From IMG/VR virus record IMGVR_UViG_3300048987_000022, positions 1 through 20,298 of that record: DNA of 20,298 nucleotides; one strand, 5' to 3'. Every line of letters starts with the position of its first letter. Position 1 is the stretch's first letter. This document shows positions 1,926 to 19,881 of the stretch, piece after piece. The stretch is from a virus. Under the pieces are notes generated by a model that did no database searches, was not told the origin of the DNA, and was given only the letters and a program-made list of their open reading frames with translations. The position numbers and the translations under genes were made by a program.

Positions 1926-2840
1926 CTAGGCTACGTTCACGTCGTAGATGACGGGGAGAACGTTCGTTTGAACCTTCAGACCATAATCGAGACGGGCGTA
2001 AATCTGCGTTCCCGAGAGGTTACCAGCGGTCGATGAGGCCGGATGTTCGTTGACGAACGTCCGTCCGTAAGTGCTGTTCAAGAGACCAAGCACCTGGATA
2101 CCGCGCACGCCTGCCATAACGTGGTTGGCCGCGTGGGAGGTCGAAACGTAGTGGTAGAGACCCATAGTCTCCTTACCGATACGTCCCTTGCCACCGTCGG
2201 CCAAGGCCTCGTCTGCGAAGCGGTAACCGTTCGCCTGCATAAATGCGACGAGTTTGGTCCAGTCTGCCGGACGCCAGATGACGAATCCGCCCTTGTCGGC
2301 ATACAGAGAGAAACCGTTGGCGGTCTGAATCTGTTCAACAATGCCGCGGATAATGTCGTCGATGTTGGTCGTCGAAACGGTGAGGGTCGCCGTCGCGAGT
2401 GCGACGTTGCCCGAGCCGTCGTCGCCGATGTTGGTCCAGTTCGCATGGTTGCCCAGTACGATGGCCTCAACTCGTTCGCCCATCTTCTTTCCGAGAAGAC
2501 CCGCGAGTTCCATTTGCTTCGTGTAATTAGACTGCGCCTCATCTGCGAAGTCGATGTACACGCTGTCCATGTCCGTTGTGAGGATCTGGAGCGTTTCGCT
2601 GGACTGTGTGACCGTGATGAGCGGAATAACTTTCGTCGTGTCCGAACGGTCCGCCGCCGTCGCAAACTGTCCTGTCGCTACTGCCGGCTCTCCTGCTGAG
2701 GAGATGTACGGAAGTACGAGCGTCTGCGTGTTTGAGTATCGAACGTCACAAACGTCTTTCCAGTTCTGCGGTTTGTCGAGGCGGGTCGCAAGAGTAGTGT
2801 CCCACTCCTGCTGATACTGAAATGTACCGATTGTTGCCAT
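1926..2840 (-). CDS. Major capsid protein, 304 aa
   Basis: Main shell protein of the head, probably HK97 fold. Its place directly after a scaffold gene and downstream of portal and terminase, its length (about 300 aa) and the sequence pattern support this: an N-terminal arm (TFQYQQEWDTTLATRLDKPQ), a long spine-helix-like stretch around residues 95-130 (EAQSNYTKQMELAGLLGKKM), a WRPADWTKLVAFMQANG segment around 190, and a strand-rich C terminus ending LKVQTNVLPVIYDVNVA. No N-terminal protease delta domain is visible, so a separate scaffold (the upstream gene) is expected. The ATG lies three bases after a perfect 8-bp hairpin that includes the only SD-like AGG. A palindromic CCCGA-ACAC-TCGGG lies between this gene and the next. 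Confidence 0.93.
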   Translation of the reverse strand: MATIGTFQYQQEWDTTLATRLDKPQNWKDVCDVRYSNTQTLVLPYISSAGEPAVATGQFATAADRSDTTKVIPLITVTQSSETLQILTTDMDSVYIDFADEAQSNYTKQMELAGLLGKKMGERVEAIVLGNHANWTNIGDDGSGNVALATATLTVSTTNIDDIIRGIVEQIQTANGFSLYADKGGFVIWRPADWTKLVAFMQANGYRFADEALADGGKGRIGKETMGLYHYVSTSHAANHVMAGVRGIQVLGLLNSTYGRTFVNEHPASSTAGNLSGTQIYARLDYGLKVQTNVLPVIYDVNVA

Positions 2841-4202: not shown

Positions 4203-4640
4203 TTAAAGGAAGTCCGCGACCGTGAGCGTTGTCGAGGCCGTGGGCGACTTGATGTAGACCGCGCCGCATCCGTAGAGCGCGCCGTCGTAGGAAACGGTCG
4301 TGGAGGCTGCCTGGGTGAAGCTGGCTACTCCCGACAAGGTTGTTGATGCGAGGTCGCCGTTGGTCGGGTCGGCGAACAAGATGTAGATGTCGGATGATTG
4401 TGTGCGGATAAGGCGTGCCGCGCAGTTCGGGGACGCGCTGAACACCTTGGTTGCATTCCCGGGTCCTACTTGGGTCGATGTGGCGACGCGCTGTGTTGCG
4501 GCGAGGCCTGAAGGCGCTGAGCCATAGGTCACCGTTTGTGTTGAGTGGGTGGCTAGGATATGCGAGAATCCGACACCGCACGTAAAGGCGGTTACGAGCA
4601 TAGTTCCGATTACTGCAAACTTGATAAAGTTGTCTGTCAT
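4203..4640 (-). CDS. Membrane-anchored beta-rich protein in head module, 145 aa, unknown
   Basis: The start at 4640 (MTDNFIKFAVIG) is chosen because upstream in-frame starts would run into the preceding gene and give an implausible basic extension. Residues about 5-25 form a hydrophobic helix (FIKFAVIGTMLVTAFTCGVG), then a Ser/Thr/Ala-rich beta domain with repeated AST groups (VATSTQVGPGN, NGDLASTTLSG, FTQAASTTVSYDGALYGCG) ending TASTTLTVADFL. Same layout as the protein at 3543-4064: N-terminal anchor, beta domain, cysteines. The C-terminal half resembles small phage-associated beta proteins I associate with metagenomic phages, but no function is known. Possibly a virion surface protein. No Shine-Dalgarno. 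Confidence 0.72.
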   Translation of the reverse strand: MTDNFIKFAVIGTMLVTAFTCGVGFSHILATHSTQTVTYGSAPSGLAATQRVATSTQVGPGNATKVFSASPNCAARLIRTQSSDIYILFADPTNGDLASTTLSGVASFTQAASTTVSYDGALYGCGAVYIKSPTASTTLTVADFL

Positions 4641-4662
4641 AGATGTTTTGCTGATGAATAAA

Positions 4663-4905
4663 TTAACGAGCCGGATTGCTTGATGGTTGCGGCGCGGGAA
4701 CAGTTTTGTAGCGGGCGATCTCTTTGAATGCTTCATCGACCTTTTTAAGACCGTCTAATCTCGCGCGCACGACTTGCCCAATAATATCATTGGTCATGTT
4801 GGTTTGGATATCATCGAGTGTGAATTGCTTTTCGATGACTGCGCGGACGGCCGCTACGAGCGTGGAATTGTCTGCGAATCCGCTCAGTGTTGTTTTGTCG
4901 TCCAT
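4663..4905 (-). CDS. Small phage protein, 80 aa, unknown
   Basis: Hydrophilic, mostly helical 80-aa protein (MDDKTTLSGFADNSTLVAAV, later DDIQTNMTNDIIGQVVRARL) with a proline-rich tail (PAPQPSSNPAR). It immediately follows the portal gene: the portal TAA is three bases before this ATG (TAATTT-ATG), without Shine-Dalgarno, which suggests coupled synthesis and a role in head assembly. Small helical proteins at this position are sometimes scaffold or portal accessory factors, but nothing identifies this one. Confidence 0.65.
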   Translation of the reverse strand: MDDKTTLSGFADNSTLVAAVRAVIEKQFTLDDIQTNMTNDIIGQVVRARLDGLKKVDEAFKEIARYKTVPAPQPSSNPAR

Positions 4906-4908
4906 AAA

Positions 4909-6780
4909 TTAGTGTGCTGCGGGTTGCGGTGGTGTGATTTGTCCTTGTGCGTTATCGATACCCGCCAATTGTAGCATTGCTTTCTGGTCCTCAGGCTTGA
5001 GGTCTGCGTAGTCGATGGTCTCAGTCATGCGGCGGGTCGGCATCATCGGCGCTTGGAATCCGTGCAAGTCTATCGGGTCAAGGCCGCTCGCTTCGATGAT
5101 CTTGTTGAAGAGCTGGGCGATAGGCGGTGATTGGAGGATGTACGGATTTGCAACGATGGTGCGGAAGACGTTTGTGAGCTTGTCCACCTTCGCAGCGAGG
5201 TCTTTCTGCTTGCCGGCGACATTGGTGCGGACGCCAACGCTCAAATCCTTGAATTCGCCCTTGAGTATCTGAATGAAGTGCTTGTTGCCCTTCTTCTTGA
5301 ACTCGGACTGGACGATCTGTCTGTAGCCTTCGATGAGCTGCGGGTCGATAACGTCACCACTTGCCAGTTTGCCGCTTAGTACAAGCTGTTTGATCTTGTC
5401 GTTCGTCTCGCAGGTTACGAGCGCGTCCGCCACGTACTGCAATTCGTCGAGGTCAAGTTCGGCTAGGAACTCGGTGCCTTGGGTAATCTCCTTCACGATG
5501 CGGGGGATGACCCAATCGCGATAAATCTCGTCCACAAATGTTGCGAGCTTGCCTCGGCGATAGTCATGGAGCGAGTGTGCTTCCTGCGCTACCAGCTCTT
5601 GTAGACGGAATGGTGTGCCCGAGGCGGGCGGTTTGCCCATGATGCTGTCATTGGCAGCGCCCATCTGTTGGGCATGCGCCTCCCACTCTTCAACGGATTT
5701 GTCGAATATGGCAGCATTGCGCGGGAACGTATCTACCTGGGAGATGTCGGTATTGGGGGCTAGTTCGATAATCTCAAGGTTCTCCATGTCGCGGACCTTG
5801 TTCTTCTGCGCAACGGCGGGGTCGGTCGATTTGAGGATGGTGACTGCGGCGGCGTCCAACAGGGCCTGCTTGCGGATTTGGTCGTAGTTGATCCACACCT
5901 GCGGCTCGAACAACTCCTCCGCACCTCCAAAGCCGAGCGCGCGGCCGTACACGGCGTCACGCGCGATGAATTTAAAGGGACTCTTGGTCTCCTCTGCCCT
6001 GTAGAGGGTGATGTTGCCCTTCTCACCGTTCACCTTGTCATAGAAGCAGGCAATTTGGAGCTGGGTGACGTAGGTGCCGGTGCTGTCCGACGGGACTAAG
6101 AAGCGCTTCGGCATGTTGCCGTGGATCTCGTATACCTCGATGTACTTGCCGGGTGTGTCGGTAATCGTGCCGTCGGGATTTGTCTTTTTTTTCTCGCGTG
6201 CAAGCGTGATGGTTTCTTGCAGTGTTGCGGTCGCGCCGTTCGCTGTGTCTCCCCATCCCTTGTCCGCCATGTCGAGGAGCTGGTCGGGCGAGTAGAAATG
6301 TTTGATGCCGATAGGACCGGAGAGGATGTCGGTCTGGTCACAGAAGGCGATGCTCTGCAACGGCACCACTTCGGGCTTTACATCGTTCACGTCCTTTATG
6401 AGCGTGCCGCCGAAGTCCACGTAGGACTCCACAAGAGAGTCGATGAACGTGTCCATTGCGTTCTCAAGCGCCCACTTCTCATGGAATTTCCTGATGAGGA
6501 GGGACTTGTAGTATTCCTTCGAGTCGTCAACGAATATTGTGATGTCTTTAACGTCGAAGCCTTCGGCACGGTATTGAAGGTTCAATATCGGCCGCGTGAT
6601 GTTCTTGATGGGCTTCAAGCCGCCGGGGTTGCCGGTACTGAGCTGGCTGTTCTTGTAGAGGACGGACAGGCGTATGTGGTCCGCCATGCTCCAGTCCCAG
6701 GAGTCGGTGATGTGGATAGGCCGTTTGTAGGCAGTCTCCTGAGCCTGAATGAACGCGAACACGTCCTTGTCGTAAGCCAT
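4909..6780 (-). CDS. Portal protein, 623 aa
   Basis: Forms the dodecameric DNA entry ring at one capsid vertex. Support: position after terminase and before scaffold and capsid, and size. Visible portal-like features are an N-terminal segment with TDSWDWSMADHIRLSVLYKN and a GGLKPIKNITRPILNLQYRA stretch, helix-strand wing domain in the first 280 residues (YVDFGGTLIKDVNDVKPEVV), a central segment after about 300 (VWINYDQIRKQALLDAAAVT), a clip/stem-like region around 360-420 with QQMGAANDSIMGKPPASGTP, and a long helical C-terminal crown-like part (after 500). At 623 aa it is larger than siphophage portals (about 400-500 aa) and in the podovirus range. Its ATG is two bases after the TGA of the 74-aa gene (TGATT-ATG), without Shine-Dalgarno. 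Confidence 0.88.
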   Translation of the reverse strand: MAYDKDVFAFIQAQETAYKRPIHITDSWDWSMADHIRLSVLYKNSQLSTGNPGGLKPIKNITRPILNLQYRAEGFDVKDITIFVDDSKEYYKSLLIRKFHEKWALENAMDTFIDSLVESYVDFGGTLIKDVNDVKPEVVPLQSIAFCDQTDILSGPIGIKHFYSPDQLLDMADKGWGDTANGATATLQETITLAREKKKTNPDGTITDTPGKYIEVYEIHGNMPKRFLVPSDSTGTYVTQLQIACFYDKVNGEKGNITLYRAEETKSPFKFIARDAVYGRALGFGGAEELFEPQVWINYDQIRKQALLDAAAVTILKSTDPAVAQKNKVRDMENLEIIELAPNTDISQVDTFPRNAAIFDKSVEEWEAHAQQMGAANDSIMGKPPASGTPFRLQELVAQEAHSLHDYRRGKLATFVDEIYRDWVIPRIVKEITQGTEFLAELDLDELQYVADALVTCETNDKIKQLVLSGKLASGDVIDPQLIEGYRQIVQSEFKKKGNKHFIQILKGEFKDLSVGVRTNVAGKQKDLAAKVDKLTNVFRTIVANPYILQSPPIAQLFNKIIEASGLDPIDLHGFQAPMMPTRRMTETIDYADLKPEDQKAMLQLAGIDNAQGQITPPQPAAH

Positions 6781-13542: not shown

Positions 13543-14136
13543 TCAGGCGCTAGTTTTTTTCAAAGGGACAACGTTGGTGGTTGGAATACGCCATTGCGGC
13601 GGCAGTTTCGCAATGTCGTTCAAACCTAGATAGCCTGCGATGTCGCCATTCTCCAACCGAATCGGGACGGCAACGAGACCACGCATAATGCCCTTGCTGC
13701 AGAAGCCGATGCCAAGGGCTTCAGCGTCCGTTGGATCAAATCCCACAGCTTCAACGGCTGGATGGTCATGCTCCAATCCGTCCAAAGGCTTCATGCCGCC
13801 ACCTGCCGTCGTCGTTGCTTGAGGCTTCGGGGCTTCTTCCTGCTTGGGCTGCGCAATGCGGAAATGTTCTGCGAGTTCTTGCGCCGCCTCACGTTGGCTG
13901 CATCCTCGGATGTGAGCGGTGAGCGAAATTAAATCGCCCCCCTTTCCATCCGAAAAACAGTAAAAACTTGCCTTGGTGATGTTGACGGCCAAGGCTCGTT
14001 CTCCACCCGTACGGCATTGCGGGCAACTCGAACGCATTTGGTCATTGCCTTTCATTTTCAGGCCGAGCATGTCCACGACCTGGGCAATCGTCAGTGCCTC
14101 CTTCAAGGCAGCAAAATCTACAAACGTTCCGGCCAT
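13543..14136 (-). CDS. CHC2 zinc-finger primase-like protein, truncated relative to DnaG, 197 aa
   Basis: N-terminal zinc-binding domain of DnaG type: helix VDFAALKEALTIAQVVDMLG, then C38-x2-C41 (SSCPQC), and FYCFSDGKGGD with C60. The fourth usual ligand (Cys three residues after C60 in DnaG) is Asp here. After a linker rich in Pro/Gln/Thr (residues 96-115) comes a second part (EALGIGFCSKGIMRGLVAVP then ENGDIAGYLGL) that resembles the DnaG core N-terminal subdomain. There is no TOPRIM DGD, so it is not a complete primase; proteins of this size are common in Bradyrhizobium genomes and may bind DNA in phage replication. AAAGGAGAA five bases before ATG is a strong Shine-Dalgarno, and a -10-like motif is at 14175. 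Confidence 0.85.
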   Translation of the reverse strand: MAGTFVDFAALKEALTIAQVVDMLGLKMKGNDQMRSSCPQCRTGGERALAVNITKASFYCFSDGKGGDLISLTAHIRGCSQREAAQELAEHFRIAQPKQEEAPKPQATTTAGGGMKPLDGLEHDHPAVEAVGFDPTDAEALGIGFCSKGIMRGLVAVPIRLENGDIAGYLGLNDIAKLPPQWRIPTTNVVPLKKTSA

Positions 14137-14194: not shown

Positions 14195-14219
14195 TGGGGG
14201 AGAGCGTCGAGTGTGGAGC

Positions 14220-14290
14220 TGGGGTGTCGTCTAAAGGCAGGACGGAGGGCCTTGGACCCTCTGATGGTGGTTCGAATCCATTCGCCCCAG
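14220..14290 (+). tRNA. tRNA-Gln(UUG), phage-encoded
   Basis: Full cloverleaf: acceptor TGGGGTG/CGCCCCA, D stem GTC/GAC, anticodon stem GAGGG/CCCTC with loop CCTTGGA (anticodon TTG), T arm GGTGG-TTCGAAT-CCATT with two G-U pairs, discriminator G. No CCA is encoded. U1-A72, G2-C71, G3-C70 and G73 are the known glutaminyl-tRNA synthetase identity elements, which supports Gln over an alternative shifted reading (TGG, Pro) that would leave a C-C mismatch in the stem. Position 33 is C rather than U, which is rare. Confidence 0.85.
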
Positions 14291-14337
14291 CCCCGCACTC
14301 GAATTTGAACATTGTGGCGGGAGAAAGCGAGCATGCA

Positions 14338-14601: not shown

Positions 14602-14630
14602 GGGCGGCCTGCGGGTCGCCCTTATTTTTT
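14602..14630 (+). terminator. Intrinsic terminator after tRNA-Gln and the 83-aa gene
   Basis: GGGCGGCC-TGCG-GGTCGCCC: eight base pairs (one G-U) with a 4-base loop, followed by TTATTTTTT. It is 12 bases beyond the stop codon. Confidence 0.8.
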
Positions 14631-15618
14631 ACTTCGCTCCCAACTCCGCAAGAATATCCAGCGGCGGATGACCTACCCGCTGCCACGGCTCAGTCAGCAT
14701 GAAGCCCGTCGGCTTCGGAAAATGGTCGATGGATGCGAACTCGCGGACGAATTTGAATGCGATATGCGCCGAGCCTTTGCCGCCTGTGCGTTCCTCTAGG
14801 ATGTTCATCATCTCCCGCATCTCGTGCTCGCTTATGGCGACAAACAGCGTGGCGGCGTTCGGGATGCCGAGCTGGCGCTGGTAGGTGCGCTGGCGGTGCA
14901 GCTCAAGCGCCGCCAGTATCTTTTCGTTGATAGTCTGCCGCACTGTCTTTTCAGGATTGCGCGTCTCCGTCCCGCGATCAACTTCGATGCCGGCGACGAA
15001 GAGGCGCTTGGTCTTATCTGCCTGCGTGTAGGCAATGGCGAACGGCTTGCTGTCGTGCACCGTGTCGCGGTCTACCTCTACCAGCTTATTGAGGCGCGGT
15101 GTCCGGTAGCTGAACTGCGTGGGGAAATGGAAGGGCGTCCTTGAGCGTTTCGTCTCTGGCGGGCAGGAAGGATGAGCCAGGATATCTCGATACGTAACCA
15201 GCGATAGTCCCGCCGTCTCTTTCACCCCGAGCGCGAATGAAGCGTCCACAATGCACCGCGCCGACTTGTGCTTGATATGGTCATTGCCGCGAGCGACTGG
15301 CCTGTAGAGACCAGCGTCTCTAAGCGCCTGCTCGCCCCTCTCAGAGAGGCTGTAGATGGCAGGGCGGTAGCGGGCATTCTGGCTCTCCCACGAGCCGGGC
15401 GGACACTCTATGACGCCCATCTGATGACGTAATAAAACAAAATCCTGAATGGTGGAGCGGACGGACAACCCGAGCATTGTTGGGATGTAGTGGCTCGGTA
15501 AACACTCGTAATCTTGCAATAGGTCAAGGATACGCAAGCGGTTCGAGGTGGGAAAGAATTTCGCACCCCGTGCTTTGTTATCGAAACGGTCAAGTCGCTT
15601 GGCAGTTTTGGTCGGCAT
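14629..15618 (-). CDS. Replication-relaxation family-like winged-helix protein, 329 aa
   Basis: ATG 15618 (MPTKTAKRLDRF) is chosen because a -10-like element lies at 15717-15722; the frame is open to a TTG at 15714, but that codon would be at or before the transcription start. Residues about 22-100 form a winged helix (RLRILDLLQDYECLPSHYIP, then SVRSTIQDFVLLRHQMGVIE), ending in YSLSERGEQALRDAG. The second half includes KRLFVAGIEVDRGTETRN, the E-x-D-R-G-T-E motif typical of replication-relaxation proteins (PF13814-like), which may have a nuclease-type fold. In many bacteria this family is encoded next to VirD4/TraG-like ATPases, and here too. Family members act on plasmid DNA; precise activity is not established. 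Confidence 0.75.
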   Translation of the reverse strand: MPTKTAKRLDRFDNKARGAKFFPTSNRLRILDLLQDYECLPSHYIPTMLGLSVRSTIQDFVLLRHQMGVIECPPGSWESQNARYRPAIYSLSERGEQALRDAGLYRPVARGNDHIKHKSARCIVDASFALGVKETAGLSLVTYRDILAHPSCPPETKRSRTPFHFPTQFSYRTPRLNKLVEVDRDTVHDSKPFAIAYTQADKTKRLFVAGIEVDRGTETRNPEKTVRQTINEKILAALELHRQRTYQRQLGIPNAATLFVAISEHEMREMMNILEERTGGKGSAHIAFKFVREFASIDHFPKPTGFMLTEPWQRVGHPPLDILAELGAK

Positions 15619-15716
15619 AAAAGCTGAATGCAGCCGCTCGCGCTTTCCGTCAACGTTGACAGTGAGGAGCTGCGGGTAATGGCGATGAAGTATGAAGCGC
15701 GATGAGGCGCGCAATA

Positions 15717-15722
15717 ATTATA
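15717..15722 (-). promoter_or_regulatory. -10-like element TATAAT upstream of the replication-relaxation-like gene
   Basis: Coding-strand sequence GATGATATAAT, a divergent copy of the repeated motif, overlapping the stop region of the ATPase gene. Confidence 0.4.
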
Positions 15723-15726
15723 TCAT

Positions 15727-17628
15727 CTACCAATCGGTCGAGACGATAGAACCATCCTCCTCGGGAGGTTTTGGCGAGCGTGCGGGCTTTGATGTTTTGG
15801 GCTGGGACGGAACGGTCGCAGGCGGCGACTGGAAGGTCAGCAGCGGCAACGGCTTTGAGGGCAACTCTTGGAGCGATAGCCGCTCGGCGTTGGCGCGCAA
15901 CATCCTTCCGAGCGCTTCCGTGTCCATGTGCGGTTGGCGGTCGATTTCACCGAACGGAGCGGAGTGGACGAAAGGATGCTGCGTGAAGCCTCGGACAAAG
16001 CAGGCAAAGCGGGCTTCTGTCGATGTCTTGCTCTGCGCTGTGAGGAATGACGGTTCGCAGCGGAGATCCCGCGCAACGTAGGAGAGGTCTACGCCTTCGG
16101 GACTTGAAGCATATTTAATGGTTGTGTTGGTCGAAACGGCTGAGCGTATCTTTTCCGTCATTCCGGACCCGTGCATCTCCTGATGGGCCATTGTGACGGC
16201 AAGGTTATACTCCCGCGCGAGGCGCAATAGTTCAGGCGTCTTTTCCTCGTCGGCGAACTCCTGAAACTCGTCGATGATGAGGTGAGCCTGATGCCATTCG
16301 TTCCGGGGAAGCGTGAAGCGGGCATAAGCGGCATTGAGTGTGAGGGAGATCATGTAACGGCCGAGAAGCTGCGAGGCGTCTGAACCCAGCGTGTTCATCC
16401 CTGTATTGACTAGGACGATAGATTTGTTCTGCAAGCAGTCGAGCATATCGAGCTTGCGCTCCCGAGCCTCGAACATGCGGACGAACTCAGGATGCTGCAA
16501 TACGCCATAGATGCGGGCTTTTATTTGCTGGCGTGTCTCCTTGTAGTTGGAACTGAAGAACTCATTGCGGAAGAACCGCTCTGAAGTTGCGTCCAGGCGA
16601 CCGATGAACGGCGCGAAGCGGCACTGAGAATACGGCTGCCCCTTTGGGTCATCGGTGCGCGTAGGGTCGTCCATCAGGTCAATGAGCGTGTGGATATTCG
16701 ATTCCATCCCGAACATGAGCCGGACGGCGTAGCTGAACGGGACGCTCTGCTTGTCTGTGAGCTTGGAGCCGGTACTTGAGAAGATAAAAGCGAAGGTGTT
16801 GATGACTTGGGTCTGAATGCGCCGTCGCTGTTCAACCGACCATATTTGATTCCAGCGCGATGCGGCGTGGAACATATTGAGCGCGGGCGGCGGGTCGTAC
16901 GTCGGGTCGATGACGATGAGGCGGTCTTTGAGCCGGCCAGTGTCGGGATTGAATACGTCAAGCGATTGCAGCCGTTCGACCATCAAACCCTTTGGATCAA
17001 TGATGACCATGCCGGGCGGGTCGTCGTTCGCTAAATCTTGCAAGATTAATTGCTGGAGAAGCGTCGTTTTTCCTGAACCGCTCGGACCAAGGATGTGCGT
17101 GTGTTCTTGACGAAAGCGGTCTGGAACGGGGCGCGCTTTAATGAGTTCAAGCTCGGCAACGCGCTCCTGTTCAAGTAACGCTTCCTGCTCTTTACGTGTC
17201 CGATGTTCCTGCAGGTGATGGGCATAACAGATATCGCTCATTTCTCGGATGGCGTGCGTGATAGCGGCAGACCTTCGGTTTGCCCAGTTATCTTCAAATT
17301 GAGTGATGATACCTTGCTTGAATTCGTCAAACCCGCGTAGGTCCGCAAGTTCCTCATTTGAGTGCAGGCGACCGTCAGGGTACCAGCGGCGGCGAAGGTC
17401 GTGGTAGTCGCTGACGAGTGTTTTGTATTCTCGGTCGTCGCCTATCGTTTTACCCAGTGCTAGCTCAGTGGGTACGTGGCGATTGAACTCACTTTCAAAG
17501 CAGTTGTCGGAGCAGAAAAAGAATAATTCCCATGATGCTATTTTGCCTTCGAGCGTGAGGCCGTACTGCGATTGGAATGTTCGCGGCGGGCCGCCGCAGT
17601 GAGCGCACCTATCAGGTTTGAAGCGCAT
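15727..17628 (-). CDS. VirD4/HerA-like DNA-pumping ATPase with N-terminal zinc ribbon, 633 aa
   Basis: N terminus has a TRASH/MYM-type zinc ribbon: C8-x2-C11 (RCAHCGG) and C39-x3-C43 (FFFCSDNCFESEF). A charged coiled-coil-like helix follows (about 140-165), then the ATPase: Walker A GPSGSGKTT at 181-189, a VIIDPKG strand after it, Walker B LIIDEFQEF at 450-458, and TMAHQEM at 479-485 as the sensor Gln motif typical of VirD4, TraG and HerA motors. The C terminus is a Pro/Ser/Lys-rich tail. Unlike conjugative coupling proteins it has no membrane helices, so it should be cytoplasmic. It pairs with the replication-relaxation-like gene downstream and a 135-aa protein upstream (TAG-CC-ATG). Function in a phage is not known; DNA translocation or partition is inferred. 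Confidence 0.87.
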   Translation of the reverse strand: MRFKPDRCAHCGGPPRTFQSQYGLTLEGKIASWELFFFCSDNCFESEFNRHVPTELALGKTIGDDREYKTLVSDYHDLRRRWYPDGRLHSNEELADLRGFDEFKQGIITQFEDNWANRRSAAITHAIREMSDICYAHHLQEHRTRKEQEALLEQERVAELELIKARPVPDRFRQEHTHILGPSGSGKTTLLQQLILQDLANDDPPGMVIIDPKGLMVERLQSLDVFNPDTGRLKDRLIVIDPTYDPPPALNMFHAASRWNQIWSVEQRRRIQTQVINTFAFIFSSTGSKLTDKQSVPFSYAVRLMFGMESNIHTLIDLMDDPTRTDDPKGQPYSQCRFAPFIGRLDATSERFFRNEFFSSNYKETRQQIKARIYGVLQHPEFVRMFEARERKLDMLDCLQNKSIVLVNTGMNTLGSDASQLLGRYMISLTLNAAYARFTLPRNEWHQAHLIIDEFQEFADEEKTPELLRLAREYNLAVTMAHQEMHGSGMTEKIRSAVSTNTTIKYASSPEGVDLSYVARDLRCEPSFLTAQSKTSTEARFACFVRGFTQHPFVHSAPFGEIDRQPHMDTEALGRMLRANAERLSLQELPSKPLPLLTFQSPPATVPSQPKTSKPARSPKPPEEDGSIVSTDW

Positions 17629-17630
17629 GG

Positions 17631-18038
17631 CTAAAGGTCAAACGTTTCTTTGTTGCCAATGTCCCGATTGTGGTCAATTACGCGCTTCAACGACTCCAAA
17701 TGTTTGCGAATTTCATCAGCCCAATTTTTGGCTTCGCCCGGCGTCTTGAATTGGAGAACTAAACCTTTTGGATCACAGAACTCTCTTATCTTCAGTTTCT
17801 GAGTTGGATCGCCTGCAAGCTCGGGATGTCCCTTGTTGGTCCAATAAACCCTCGTTTCTTCGTAATTAAAACGAGGGATTTCAGCCAATATGTAGTCCCC
17901 GAGGTATCTCGTATTCAATACATTGAACTCGTCTTGGGTTAAGTGGATTGTCAGCTTGACGAAAAAGCCCGGTGTTCGTTTTGTGAATATGAACCCTTTT
18001 TTGACCAACTCCTGTAGGTGTTCAATCTCGACATGCAT
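17631..18038 (-). CDS. Unknown protein, 135 aa, first gene of the ATPase group
   Basis: ATG at 18038 (MHVEIEHLQELVKKGFIF) has GCGAGG six bases upstream; an earlier ATG at 18101 lies beyond a strong terminator and is not used. N-terminal helix, a beta section (FFVKLTIHLTQDEFNVLNTR, DYILAEIPRFNYEETRVYW), and a C-terminal helical part (TPGEAKNWADEIRKHLESLK). Soluble, no motif recognised. Its stop is two bases before the ATPase start, so the two are coupled. May be a partner of the ATPase. Confidence 0.75.
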   Translation of the reverse strand: MHVEIEHLQELVKKGFIFTKRTPGFFVKLTIHLTQDEFNVLNTRYLGDYILAEIPRFNYEETRVYWTNKGHPELAGDPTQKLKIREFCDPKGLVLQFKTPGEAKNWADEIRKHLESLKRVIDHNRDIGNKETFDL

Positions 18039-18090: not shown

Positions 18091-18312
18091 CTATTGAGCA
18101 TTCCAGTCTTCAGTCACGTTCAGGCCGTGTTTTTCGAAGTAGGCCAACACATCTGCCACCCGCCAGACACGCCGAGAGTTATGGTGGCCCCCGAGCTTGA
18201 AGCTCTTAGGATACCTGCCATCGTGCTCTCCTCGGTCTGTTTCGGCCCGGCAAAACGGCCAGCCCATCAGTCGAAGTTTTTTCCAGTCTACAACTAGAGG
18301 CTTGATCGACAT
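18091..18312 (-). CDS. AlpA/excisionase-like DNA-binding protein, 73 aa
   Basis: MSIKPLVVDWKKLRLMGWPF begins a MerR/AlpA-type winged helix: the helix with CRAETDRGEHDGRYPKSFKL, then GGHHNSRRVWRVADVLAYFE, matches the R-x-P-K-x-x-K-L-G ... W-x-x-x-DVxAW/F pattern of AlpA-like recombination directionality factors. It is next to the integrase and has the same orientation, so it probably directs excision. ATG 18312 has TGGAGC seven bases upstream; the open frame to 18396 would pass close to the integrase terminator and was not used. Confidence 0.8.
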   Translation of the reverse strand: MSIKPLVVDWKKLRLMGWPFCRAETDRGEHDGRYPKSFKLGGHHNSRRVWRVADVLAYFEKHGLNVTEDWNAQ

Positions 18313-18394
18313 TGCTATGCTCCATCGTCGGAGCGTTGCAACGCCACCAGTTTCCACTAGCAGGCAGCCGAACGGCTGCACGGCAAGCCTATTC

Positions 18395-18422
18395 AAAAGA
18401 AAGGTGCCCCGCTAGGGGCACC
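18395..18422 (-). terminator. Intrinsic terminator after the integrase
   Basis: Perfect 8-bp stem GGTGCCCC/GGGGCACC with GCTA loop (18403-18422), then TTTCTTTT on the minus strand. A second palindrome, CAGCCG-AA-CGGCTG, lies at 18366-18379. Confidence 0.85.
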
Positions 18423-18442: not shown

Positions 18443-19642
18443 TTAGGCTATTCGGACGCCGACTGACCCGGTCTTGAACTGGTCCAGCAGGTCCGCCCAA
18501 TCTTGCAAGAGCTTTTGTCTTTGCGGCCAATACAGTGCTCGGTTATAGGCCGCTCGAACTTCGTTCTCGTCTAAATGCGCGAGTGCCACTTCGATTACTC
18601 GTGAGTCGTGTCCCCGCTCATTGAGGATAGTTGATGCCGACGAACGGAAGCCGTGCGCCGTCACCTCCTCTTTGGTGTAGCCCATTCTGCGAAGCGCCGA
18701 GTTCATGGCGTTTTCGGAGAGAGGTTTCACGGCAGAGCGTATTGACGGGAACACAAGCGCGCCGTCCTCGGACAAGTCCCAAACGCTCCTAAGAACGTCT
18801 AGGGCTTGCCGTGACAGCGGCACGTCGTGCGGGCGGCGCATCTTCATCCGCTCGGGAGGAATTACCCACGACGCCTTTAGGAAGTTCACTTCGGGGCGGC
18901 GCATCAATCTGACTTCGCCAGGACGGGCCATTGAGAGACTGATGAACTGCAGTGCTGCCCTAAGCGTCGGCCAGCCGTCGTAGTCGTCAATTGACGCGAG
19001 CAAAGCGCCAAGGCGGGTTTCGTCGGTTATCGCTGGGCGGTGGGTTACGTCCGGTTTCAACAGCGAACCCCGTAACGCGAACGTCGGGTCGGTTTCGGCG
19101 CGAAGTGTTTGAATGGCAAACCGGAAGACAGAACCGATTGTGCCCCTCAACCGTCTCGCCGTGTCGCGCCGGCCGCTCTTCTCGACCTTCTTCAGAAGGG
19201 AGAGAATTTCGTGCGGCGTGATCGCCGTTATCGGCCGGTCTGTGAGAGGAGCTGCGAGGTCTTGGAGAAGCCATCTGTTTTTCGACAAGGTGGATTCCGA
19301 GTTTCCCTCTTCCTTCAGCTTCGCCAGATAGTCGATGACGATAACGCCGAAGGTGTTTTCGTCGGCGGTTTTCGCAGCGATCTTCTCGACCTTCTTCTGA
19401 GCGGCGGGGTCAATGCTTTGCCGTAGCTGCGCCCGTGCCTCGTCCCGTTTTAATCGGGCTTCGGCCAATGAGACTTCGGGATAAGCGCCGATCGACAGCA
19501 GTTTTTCTTTGCCGAGGAAGCGGTACTTGAAGCGCCACAGCTTCGCGGTCGGGCTGACGAACAGATGCAACCCGAGTCCGTCCGCAAGTTTGTACGGCTT
19601 GTCTTGATGTTTCGCGTTCTGAATCTTGATCTGCGTAAGCAT
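18443..19642 (-). CDS. int: P4-type tyrosine integrase, 399 aa
   Basis: Catalyses integration into tRNA-Phe. From the MLTQIKIQNAKHQDK start (AAAGG about nine bases upstream): an N-terminal arm-binding domain (DGLGLHLFVSPTAKLWRFKY), a core-binding domain (about 95-190) and a catalytic domain with R240 (SMARPGEVR), K267 (PERMK), H330-x2-R333 (AHGFRSS), H356 (LAHLDENEVR) and nucleophile Y366 (AAYNR). All key residues are present. Length is normal for P4/CP4-57-like integrases. Ends with an intrinsic terminator. The 5' end faces tRNA-Phe at 163 bases. Confidence 0.96.
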   Translation of the reverse strand: MLTQIKIQNAKHQDKPYKLADGLGLHLFVSPTAKLWRFKYRFLGKEKLLSIGAYPEVSLAEARLKRDEARAQLRQSIDPAAQKKVEKIAAKTADENTFGVIVIDYLAKLKEEGNSESTLSKNRWLLQDLAAPLTDRPITAITPHEILSLLKKVEKSGRRDTARRLRGTIGSVFRFAIQTLRAETDPTFALRGSLLKPDVTHRPAITDETRLGALLASIDDYDGWPTLRAALQFISLSMARPGEVRLMRRPEVNFLKASWVIPPERMKMRRPHDVPLSRQALDVLRSVWDLSEDGALVFPSIRSAVKPLSENAMNSALRRMGYTKEEVTAHGFRSSASTILNERGHDSRVIEVALAHLDENEVRAAYNRALYWPQRQKLLQDWADLLDQFKTGSVGVRIA

Positions 19643-19805
19643 GGGGGTATCGCCTTTCGTGTGAAAGAGCACTACCCCCAAGAATACCCCCTAATACCCC
19701 GTGCTGGCACCGTTCGCTATGCACAACAGTGAGCAAGCGAAACGGGATTAACCTCTTGATCCACCATCAAGAACAGACGCCATGAGTATCAGTGAGGAAC
19801 GGTGA
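19643..19805. promoter_or_regulatory. Integrase promoter and att-arm region with TACCCCC repeats
   Basis: This 163-base gap between integrase and tRNA-Phe has no gene. Three direct copies of TACCCC(C) begin at 19673, 19685 and 19695, and an inverted one at 19643-19649 touches the integrase start. Such G/C-rich repeats directly ahead of P4-type integrases are likely arm-type binding sites for Int or Xis and may also affect the int promoter. Confidence 0.45.
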
Positions 19806-19850
19806 TGGTGCCCAGGGGCGGGATCGAACCACCGACACTGCGATTTTCAG
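19806..19850. other. Candidate attachment site (att) in the 3' half of tRNA-Phe
   Basis: P4-type integrases recombine within tRNA 3' ends and the integrase lies just downstream of this tRNA. The crossover is therefore expected from the CCA (19806-19808) into the T arm or anticodon stem. The other copy should lie beyond base 1. Confidence 0.5.
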
Positions 19851-19881
19851 TCGCATGCTCTACCAACTGAGCTACCTGGGC
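19806..19881 (-). tRNA. tRNA-Phe(GAA)
   Basis: On the minus strand GCCCAGG starts at 19881 and pairs with CCTGGGC at the 3' end; discriminator A and encoded CCA at 19806-19808. Anticodon stem TGCGA/TCGCA with loop CTGAAAA gives GAA. T loop TTCGATC. 76 bases, all features normal. The 3' end faces the integrase, making it the integration target. Confidence 0.97.

Follow-up and report, generated by a model that had tools for sequence, protein, structure and literature searches.

What would a conjugation-type ATPase and a protein of the replication-relaxation kind be doing in a virus? Phages and conjugative elements are usually treated as separate vehicles, and the stretch analysed here, virus record IMGVR_UViG_3300048987_000022 over its 20,298 bases (hereafter the window), brings the two together. 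An earlier note on this DNA had drawn attention to three neighbouring open reading frames (ORFs), and all three lie where it placed them, with the Walker A and Walker B motifs, the AHQ motif, the four cysteines and the EVDRGTE motif that it listed. We propose, at roughly even chances, that these genes form a mobilization module of the MOBC type which is a regular constituent of a temperate phage lineage, the phage genome being moved via a type IV secretion system (T4SS) of a helper. The three genes are, with lengths in amino acids (aa):

14629..15618, minus strand: predicted MOBC-type relaxase, 329 aa from the ATG at 15618, with a MarR-like winged helix and a catalytic domain
15727..17628, minus strand: predicted VirD4/TrwB-type coupling-protein ATPase, 633 aa (TrwB_AAD_bind at 7.7e-9, above the cut-off)
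17634..18038, minus strand: protein X, 135 aa, directly upstream of the coupling protein (iterated profile)

The earlier note held that a relaxase was absent, and described the winged-helix protein as a replication-relaxation partner accompanying the ATPase. The partnership stands, as the protein is conserved beside the ATPase, but the partner is more than a companion: the 'replication-relaxation' protein itself belongs, by sequence, to the MOBC relaxase family, and is predicted to nick DNA. PD-(D/E)XK restriction endonucleases are relatives of MOBC enzymes such as CloDF13 MobC and pAD1 TraX, and the N-terminal part of TraX contains a winged helix (PMC12857230). Furthermore, PF13814 serves as a MOBC relaxase family, and streptococcal integrative and mobilizable elements (IMEs) combine Rel_PF13814/MobC with a VirD4 coupling protein (PMC5357655, PMC12479173). 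The Pfam model Replic_Relax reaches the window protein at 0.001, under its curated cut-off. In a profile comparison with hhalign, its family matched CloDF13-type MobC at 6e-5 over 130 columns, in which the PD motif, the ExD/ExE-R motif and a portion of the winged helix are paired, with the catalytic D and E of the window family set against the PD and FEVER of MobC. For this comparison an intact plasmid of 96% identity stood in for the CloDF13 reference record, in which the mob frames are broken and mobC gave no match. A control with 452 comparisons gave MobC a score of 37.5, against 23.6 for the best unrelated ORF; the sole score above that of MobC, 49.8, belongs to an ORF of plasmid pM02_c5 that is apparently a further member of the relaxase family. 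This ORF (L062, 9891-10775) is annotated as 'hypothetical', and its plasmid is typed as non-mobilizable.

Across 22 homologues of the relaxase, with a mean identity of 27%, only H117, D189 and E212 are invariant, and the EVDRGTE motif is carried by the window protein. The AlphaFold model (predicted local distance difference test, pLDDT, 90.7; predicted template modelling score, pTM, 0.89) shows a MarR-type winged helix at residues ~20-107 (Z 11.0, root-mean-square deviation 1.8 over 73 residues) followed by a mixed alpha/beta domain at residues ~106-329. A fold search with the whole relaxase listed no restriction-endonuclease entry, the list being occupied by matches to the winged helix. As for its extent, the reading frame reaches a TTG at 15714 (14629-15714), while the starts of homologues match the ATG at 15618. 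The family is highly divergent, as a search of plasmids with a Sulfitobacter relaxase illustrates, which recovered only the query itself. Searches limited to the curated PF13814 score overlook divergent members such as the window relaxase.

That the ATPase is of the VirD4-like, DNA-translocating kind, as the earlier note proposed, agrees with its above-threshold TrwB_AAD_bind domain and with TrwB of R388 as its closest solved relative by sequence (2.3e-7). We assign it to the VirD4/TrwB-type coupling proteins (type IV coupling proteins, T4CPs) on the grounds of this nucleotide-binding domain and the intact Walker motifs: Walker A reads ILGPSGSGKTTL with K187, Walker B reads HLIIDEFQE with D453/E454, and the AHQ motif contains Q483. 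The N-terminus holds a zinc ribbon (C8, C11, C39, C43). The family profile of the ATPase also picks up CloDF13-type MobB. DUF87 matches at 0.0011, and TrwB-type models fit better than HerA; the PADLOC model for mad8 matches residues 167-507 at 2e-18. A shorter, second P-loop ATPase of a related type was seen near the coupling protein at L015 (5280-6392) and L014 (1-717), and also in L017, L020, L024, L026, L036 and L044.

How does this pair compare with systems already described? Plasmids and IMEs are both known to carry MOBC relaxases together with a dedicated coupling protein. On a CloDF13-type mobB-mobC plasmid, as in the window, the coupling protein is directly followed by a MOBC 'MobC family replication-relaxation protein'; such plasmids, typed as MOBC by PLSDB, likewise have no T4SS of their own, and the catalytic motifs align. 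Unlike them, the window module sits in a temperate phage beside an integrase, its ATPase bears a zinc ribbon but no anchor, and X upstream and a CHC2 gene downstream are unmatched on the CloDF13-type plasmid, to which sequence similarity is remote. Class 8 of the streptococcal IMEs resembles the window in its compact set of integrase, PF13814 relaxase and VirD4, and differs in having serine integrases, a Firmicutes setting and no phage head genes (PMC5357655). TraX of pAD1 is also a MOBC relaxase with an N-terminal winged helix and a restriction-endonuclease-like active site (PMC12857230), a likeness drawn from the published description, but it resides on a conjugative plasmid. Finally, the HerA/DUF87 translocases and Mad8 of the MADS system have ATPase cores related to that of the window, but in the window a MOBC relaxase is the partner, and the matches of the trio to mad models are confined to that of the ATPase to mad8 and a short P-loop match to mad3. 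MADS is recognised by several mad proteins together; the relaxase and X match none of them. In the literature searched, an incomplete collection, no paper describes a module of this type as conserved across a phage lineage, and none brings 'replication-relaxation', VirD4 and phage together.

Whether the module belongs to the phage, or merely lies next to it, depends on its surroundings, which comprise the following features:

19806..19881, minus strand: tRNA-Phe, probable attachment site (ARAGORN), with its 3' end toward the integrase
18443..19681, minus strand: tyrosine integrase (Pfam Arm-DNA-bind_3, Phage_int_M and Phage_integrase)
18091..18396, minus strand: small AlpA/excisionase-like protein, kept between integrase and module in phage records
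14338..14589, plus strand: antisense ORF of 83 aa in the interval between relaxase and CHC2 gene, also in G001, G002, G003 and G005
13543..14136, minus strand: CHC2 zinc-finger, primase-like protein (Zn_ribbon_DnaG 4.5e-9), a conserved neighbour of the relaxase in phage records
7390..8658, minus strand: terminase large subunit (Terminase_3 3e-8; phrog_2 1.4e-25)
4909..6780, minus strand: portal-like protein; in other phage records its homologues adjoin terminase and capsid genes
1926..2840, minus strand: major-capsid-like protein (weak PHROG major head match, 0.0035), its order after portal and scaffold conserved elsewhere

Read from right to left, the minus strand thus carries tRNA-Phe, integrase, the AlpA-like gene, X, the ATPase, the relaxase, the CHC2 gene and an HNH gene, and beyond the latter a stretch of small genes and then the terminase, portal, scaffold and capsid genes. 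The portal-like call comes from position and the context of homologues, as Pfam gives no match. Integrase, terminase, portal and capsid genes are found in one element with the module, which marks a temperate phage. The phage setting seen by the earlier note is borne out by the terminase, by portal, scaffold and capsid genes common to other phage records, and by the integrase beside tRNA-Phe. The host side is probably to the right of tRNA-Phe. No second copy of at least 11 bases of this tRNA exists in the window, and no attachment (att) repeats marking prophage ends were found in the window or at the two ends of G002. The absence of a tRNA-Phe end repeat between module and head genes counts toward the module being the phage's own.

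Contigs enter the viral collection on the strength of their phage genes, and co-occurrence of module and phage is by itself weak proof. Stronger is the conservation of the arrangement: integrase, AlpA-like gene, (X), ATPase, relaxase, CHC2 gene and then head genes follow in this order and in one orientation in eight records, as far as each reaches (the window, G001 (L002), G002 (L003), G003 (L009), G005 (L011), G008 (L014), G009 (L015) and L013), although the ATPases of L013-L015 are only ~25-31% identical to that of the window. Moreover, the window, G001 and G002 have differing integrases beside near-identical modules. In the coupling-protein tree the six zinc-ribbon ATPases of phages form one supported set (96/100) with no non-phage member, and the zinc ribbon is conserved throughout it. 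Measured between the window and the closely related G001 and G002, the ratio of nonsynonymous to synonymous substitution rates (dN/dS) is 0.03-0.16 for the ATPase core and the C-terminal domain of the relaxase. This points to purifying selection, so the module is no decayed remnant. Taken over these genomes, the comparisons indicate that the module truly belongs to the phage and is a regular constituent of this temperate lineage.

Of the 46 loci examined, which range from Pseudomonadota to Chloroflexota, 26 have the relaxase immediately after the ATPase, no more than ~1 kb downstream. The scan of genome contigs depended on the query, yielding 0 loci with a single protein and 32 with an alignment. 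Among 28 records of module-free phages with related portals, many of them fragments, neither relaxase nor ATPase was found, and no close module occurred among 50,697 phage records. The only match in the latter was the Microcystis 'phage' Mwe-JY31 (L005, PP438423.1, 1-22207), which encodes a Rep_3 initiator, ParA, a resolvase, the coupling ATPase and the relaxase, and which resembles a plasmid; no terminase or capsid gene was recognised in it.

The third gene, X, ends with its stop codon 2 nt ahead of the ATPase start. An iterated profile recovered it next to the coupling protein at ~15 distinct loci, among them the window, L002, roseobacter elements, Desulforhopalus and a Methylomagnum plasmid. 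Neither Pfam, PHROG, NCBIfam nor PDB gave a match, and Foldseek returned none; the predicted structure has a pLDDT of 78.7. From this recurrence, X would be a third, unnamed family of such MOBC/T4CP modules, and it points to a widespread third component. In L003, within an otherwise near-identical module, X is replaced by a 270-aa protein with two zinc-ribbon-like cysteine motifs (4393-5205). The ATPases of the window and G002 are 89% identical from residue 164 onward and 32% before it, the DNA similarity setting in near codon 164, shortly before Walker A, and their relaxases are 96% identical in the C-terminal domain and 64% in the winged-helix part. The N-terminal parts and X thus appear to be swapped on a conserved motor and nuclease, which fits parts that specify site or partner.

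So how might such a module work? In the proposed mechanism, the winged helix of the relaxase would recognise a site, and its PD-(D/E)XK-like centre would nick one strand at a phage site resembling an origin of transfer (oriT). The relaxosome would then be received by the VirD4/TrwB-type ATPase, presumed hexameric, for which X and the zinc-ribbon N-terminus would serve as adaptors specific to the element, and the ATPase would feed the DNA into the T4SS of another element in the same cell. Second-strand synthesis may be aided by the CHC2 protein. We favour mobilization because of the relatedness to MOBC relaxases and coupling proteins, the gene order shared with CloDF13, the compact IME-like set, the relaxase following the ATPase at more than half of the loci, the occurrence of the pair on Rep-bearing plasmids, and the hydrophobic N-termini, usual for coupling proteins, of the other phage coupling proteins in L014 and L015. 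The element combines an integrase and a relaxase without a T4SS, as an IME does, but since it also has phage head genes we do not class it as one.

Several points weigh against this reading, chief among them the missing membrane anchor in the zinc-ribbon clade. Coupling proteins typically, though not always, have an N-terminal transmembrane domain, and throughout the clade the zinc ribbon occupies the position at which many relatives are anchored. The window ATPase has, as the earlier note stated, no hydrophobic N-terminal helix: its maximum 19-residue hydropathy is 0.65, against 2.1-3.3 in anchored relatives. CloDF13 MobB deprived of its membrane anchor no longer supports mobilization, but T4CP classes other than the VirD4 type exist (PMC7431656). 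As further classes exist, the loss of the anchor weakens the role of a membrane-bound coupling protein, and not the relatedness. The soluble ATPase might be docked by the helper or by X, or the pair might be used inside the cell, e.g. to start replication. Furthermore, the oriT and the transfer belong to the model, and no T4SS gene was seen in the window, which, together with the lack of an anchor, is what the earlier note had reported. VirB4 (PF03135) is present in 5 of 17 genomes holding the family, and never on the contig with the relaxase. The earlier note's own counter-scenario, homologues mostly beside a T4SS with the trio here as a decayed remnant, is thus not what was found, and a helper T4SS from elsewhere is possible. 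Small plasmids with the ATPase-relaxase pair (35, 25 and 14.6 kb) also show no T4SS genes in their given annotation, the relaxase of the third having emerged from the hhalign control. A last objection is that MOB-suite types these plasmid relatives as non-mobilizable, but it types CloDF13 itself the same way, and may simply miss divergent MOBC.

If mobilization is what the module serves, this uncultured phage lineage may move or process its DNA in the manner of a plasmid as well as in virus particles. With a conserved and selected mobilization module, temperate phages would offer a concrete example on which to test both the use of conjugation by viruses and a coupling protein that lacks a membrane anchor. 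We would put it somewhat short of even that this is a virus lineage with two transfer routes (nicking by its own relaxase and a helper T4SS reached through a soluble zinc-ribbon coupling protein, in addition to virions), or else one in which these enzymes have been turned into a relaxase-driven replication engine.

The latter, taken by itself as a purely intracellular role without cell-to-cell transfer, is the alternative that survives best, though we consider it unlikely. Here the MOBC nick would start rolling-circle-type replication, the soluble ATPase would translocate, and the CHC2 protein would prime. Such a role suits a zinc-ribbon clade whose members all lack a membrane anchor, the constancy of the primase-like neighbour, the place of the module where replication genes are expected, and the fact that no DnaB-type helicase was found in the module-bearing records. 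However, the CHC2 protein of the window has 197 aa and a Pfam match to the zinc finger only, and is unlikely to be a full primase. Relatives of the pair reside on plasmids that possess their own Rep genes, ParA-like and Rep being separate genes, and thus the pair is not required as their replication initiator. Coupling proteins are also not known to act as replicative helicases. The related idea that the module replaces a phage replication loader was dropped: DnaD-like loaders occur in the module-free G013, G015 and G022, but in G001 a DnaD-N-like protein occurs alongside the module.

Decidedly less probable is a role in competition or defence, in which the trio would hinder other conjugative elements, by occupying the T4SS or cutting incoming DNA, or other phages. 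The mad8 match of the ATPase speaks for it, as does the reduction by CloDF13 of its helper's transfer (PMC11389934), and chromosomal pairs in L018, L019 and L023 flank or adjoin methyltransferase and probable restriction genes (named by eye). In these three loci the ATPase-relaxase pair lies as if bracketing defence cargo. Yet no defence model matches the relaxase or X, the conserved linkage with integrase, excisionase-like gene and CHC2 gene argues for element mobility, and interference with a helper could be a by-product of mobilization. Of the roles offered by the earlier note, a cytoplasmic, non-conjugative one retains some probability given the missing anchor, whereas partition and defence are not the first reading: with a MOBC relaxase as partner, the trio reads first as a mobilization module in the style of CloDF13 and IMEs. 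Partition itself is set aside, as no ParA or ParB was seen in the window and ParA-like proteins are encoded separately on the plasmid relatives. Chance adjacency of an IME to a prophage, or a functionless conjugative remnant, could draw on the bias of the collection, the position of the module at the integrase edge and the ends of G002 without an att pair, but is largely refuted, and very improbable, in view of the single order and orientation into CHC2 and head genes across eight records with divergent T4CPs, the exchanged integrases, the missing tRNA-Phe repeat, the low dN/dS and the phage-only clade.

Several smaller observations complete the picture of the locus. The end of the AlpA-like ORF overlaps the long X ORF; Pfam gives no match for the AlpA-like protein, and its label reflects resemblance only. 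The antisense 83-aa ORF is matched by neither Pfam nor PHROG. A tRNA-Gln (TTG) lies within the phage, in the interval between CHC2 gene and relaxase (14219-14293, plus strand), and ARAGORN found none in L002 or L003. Lastly, an ArdC-type antirestriction protein, a gene kind known from conjugative plasmids, is encoded at L080 15189-16046 in the module-bearing G009, and also in the module-free G022.

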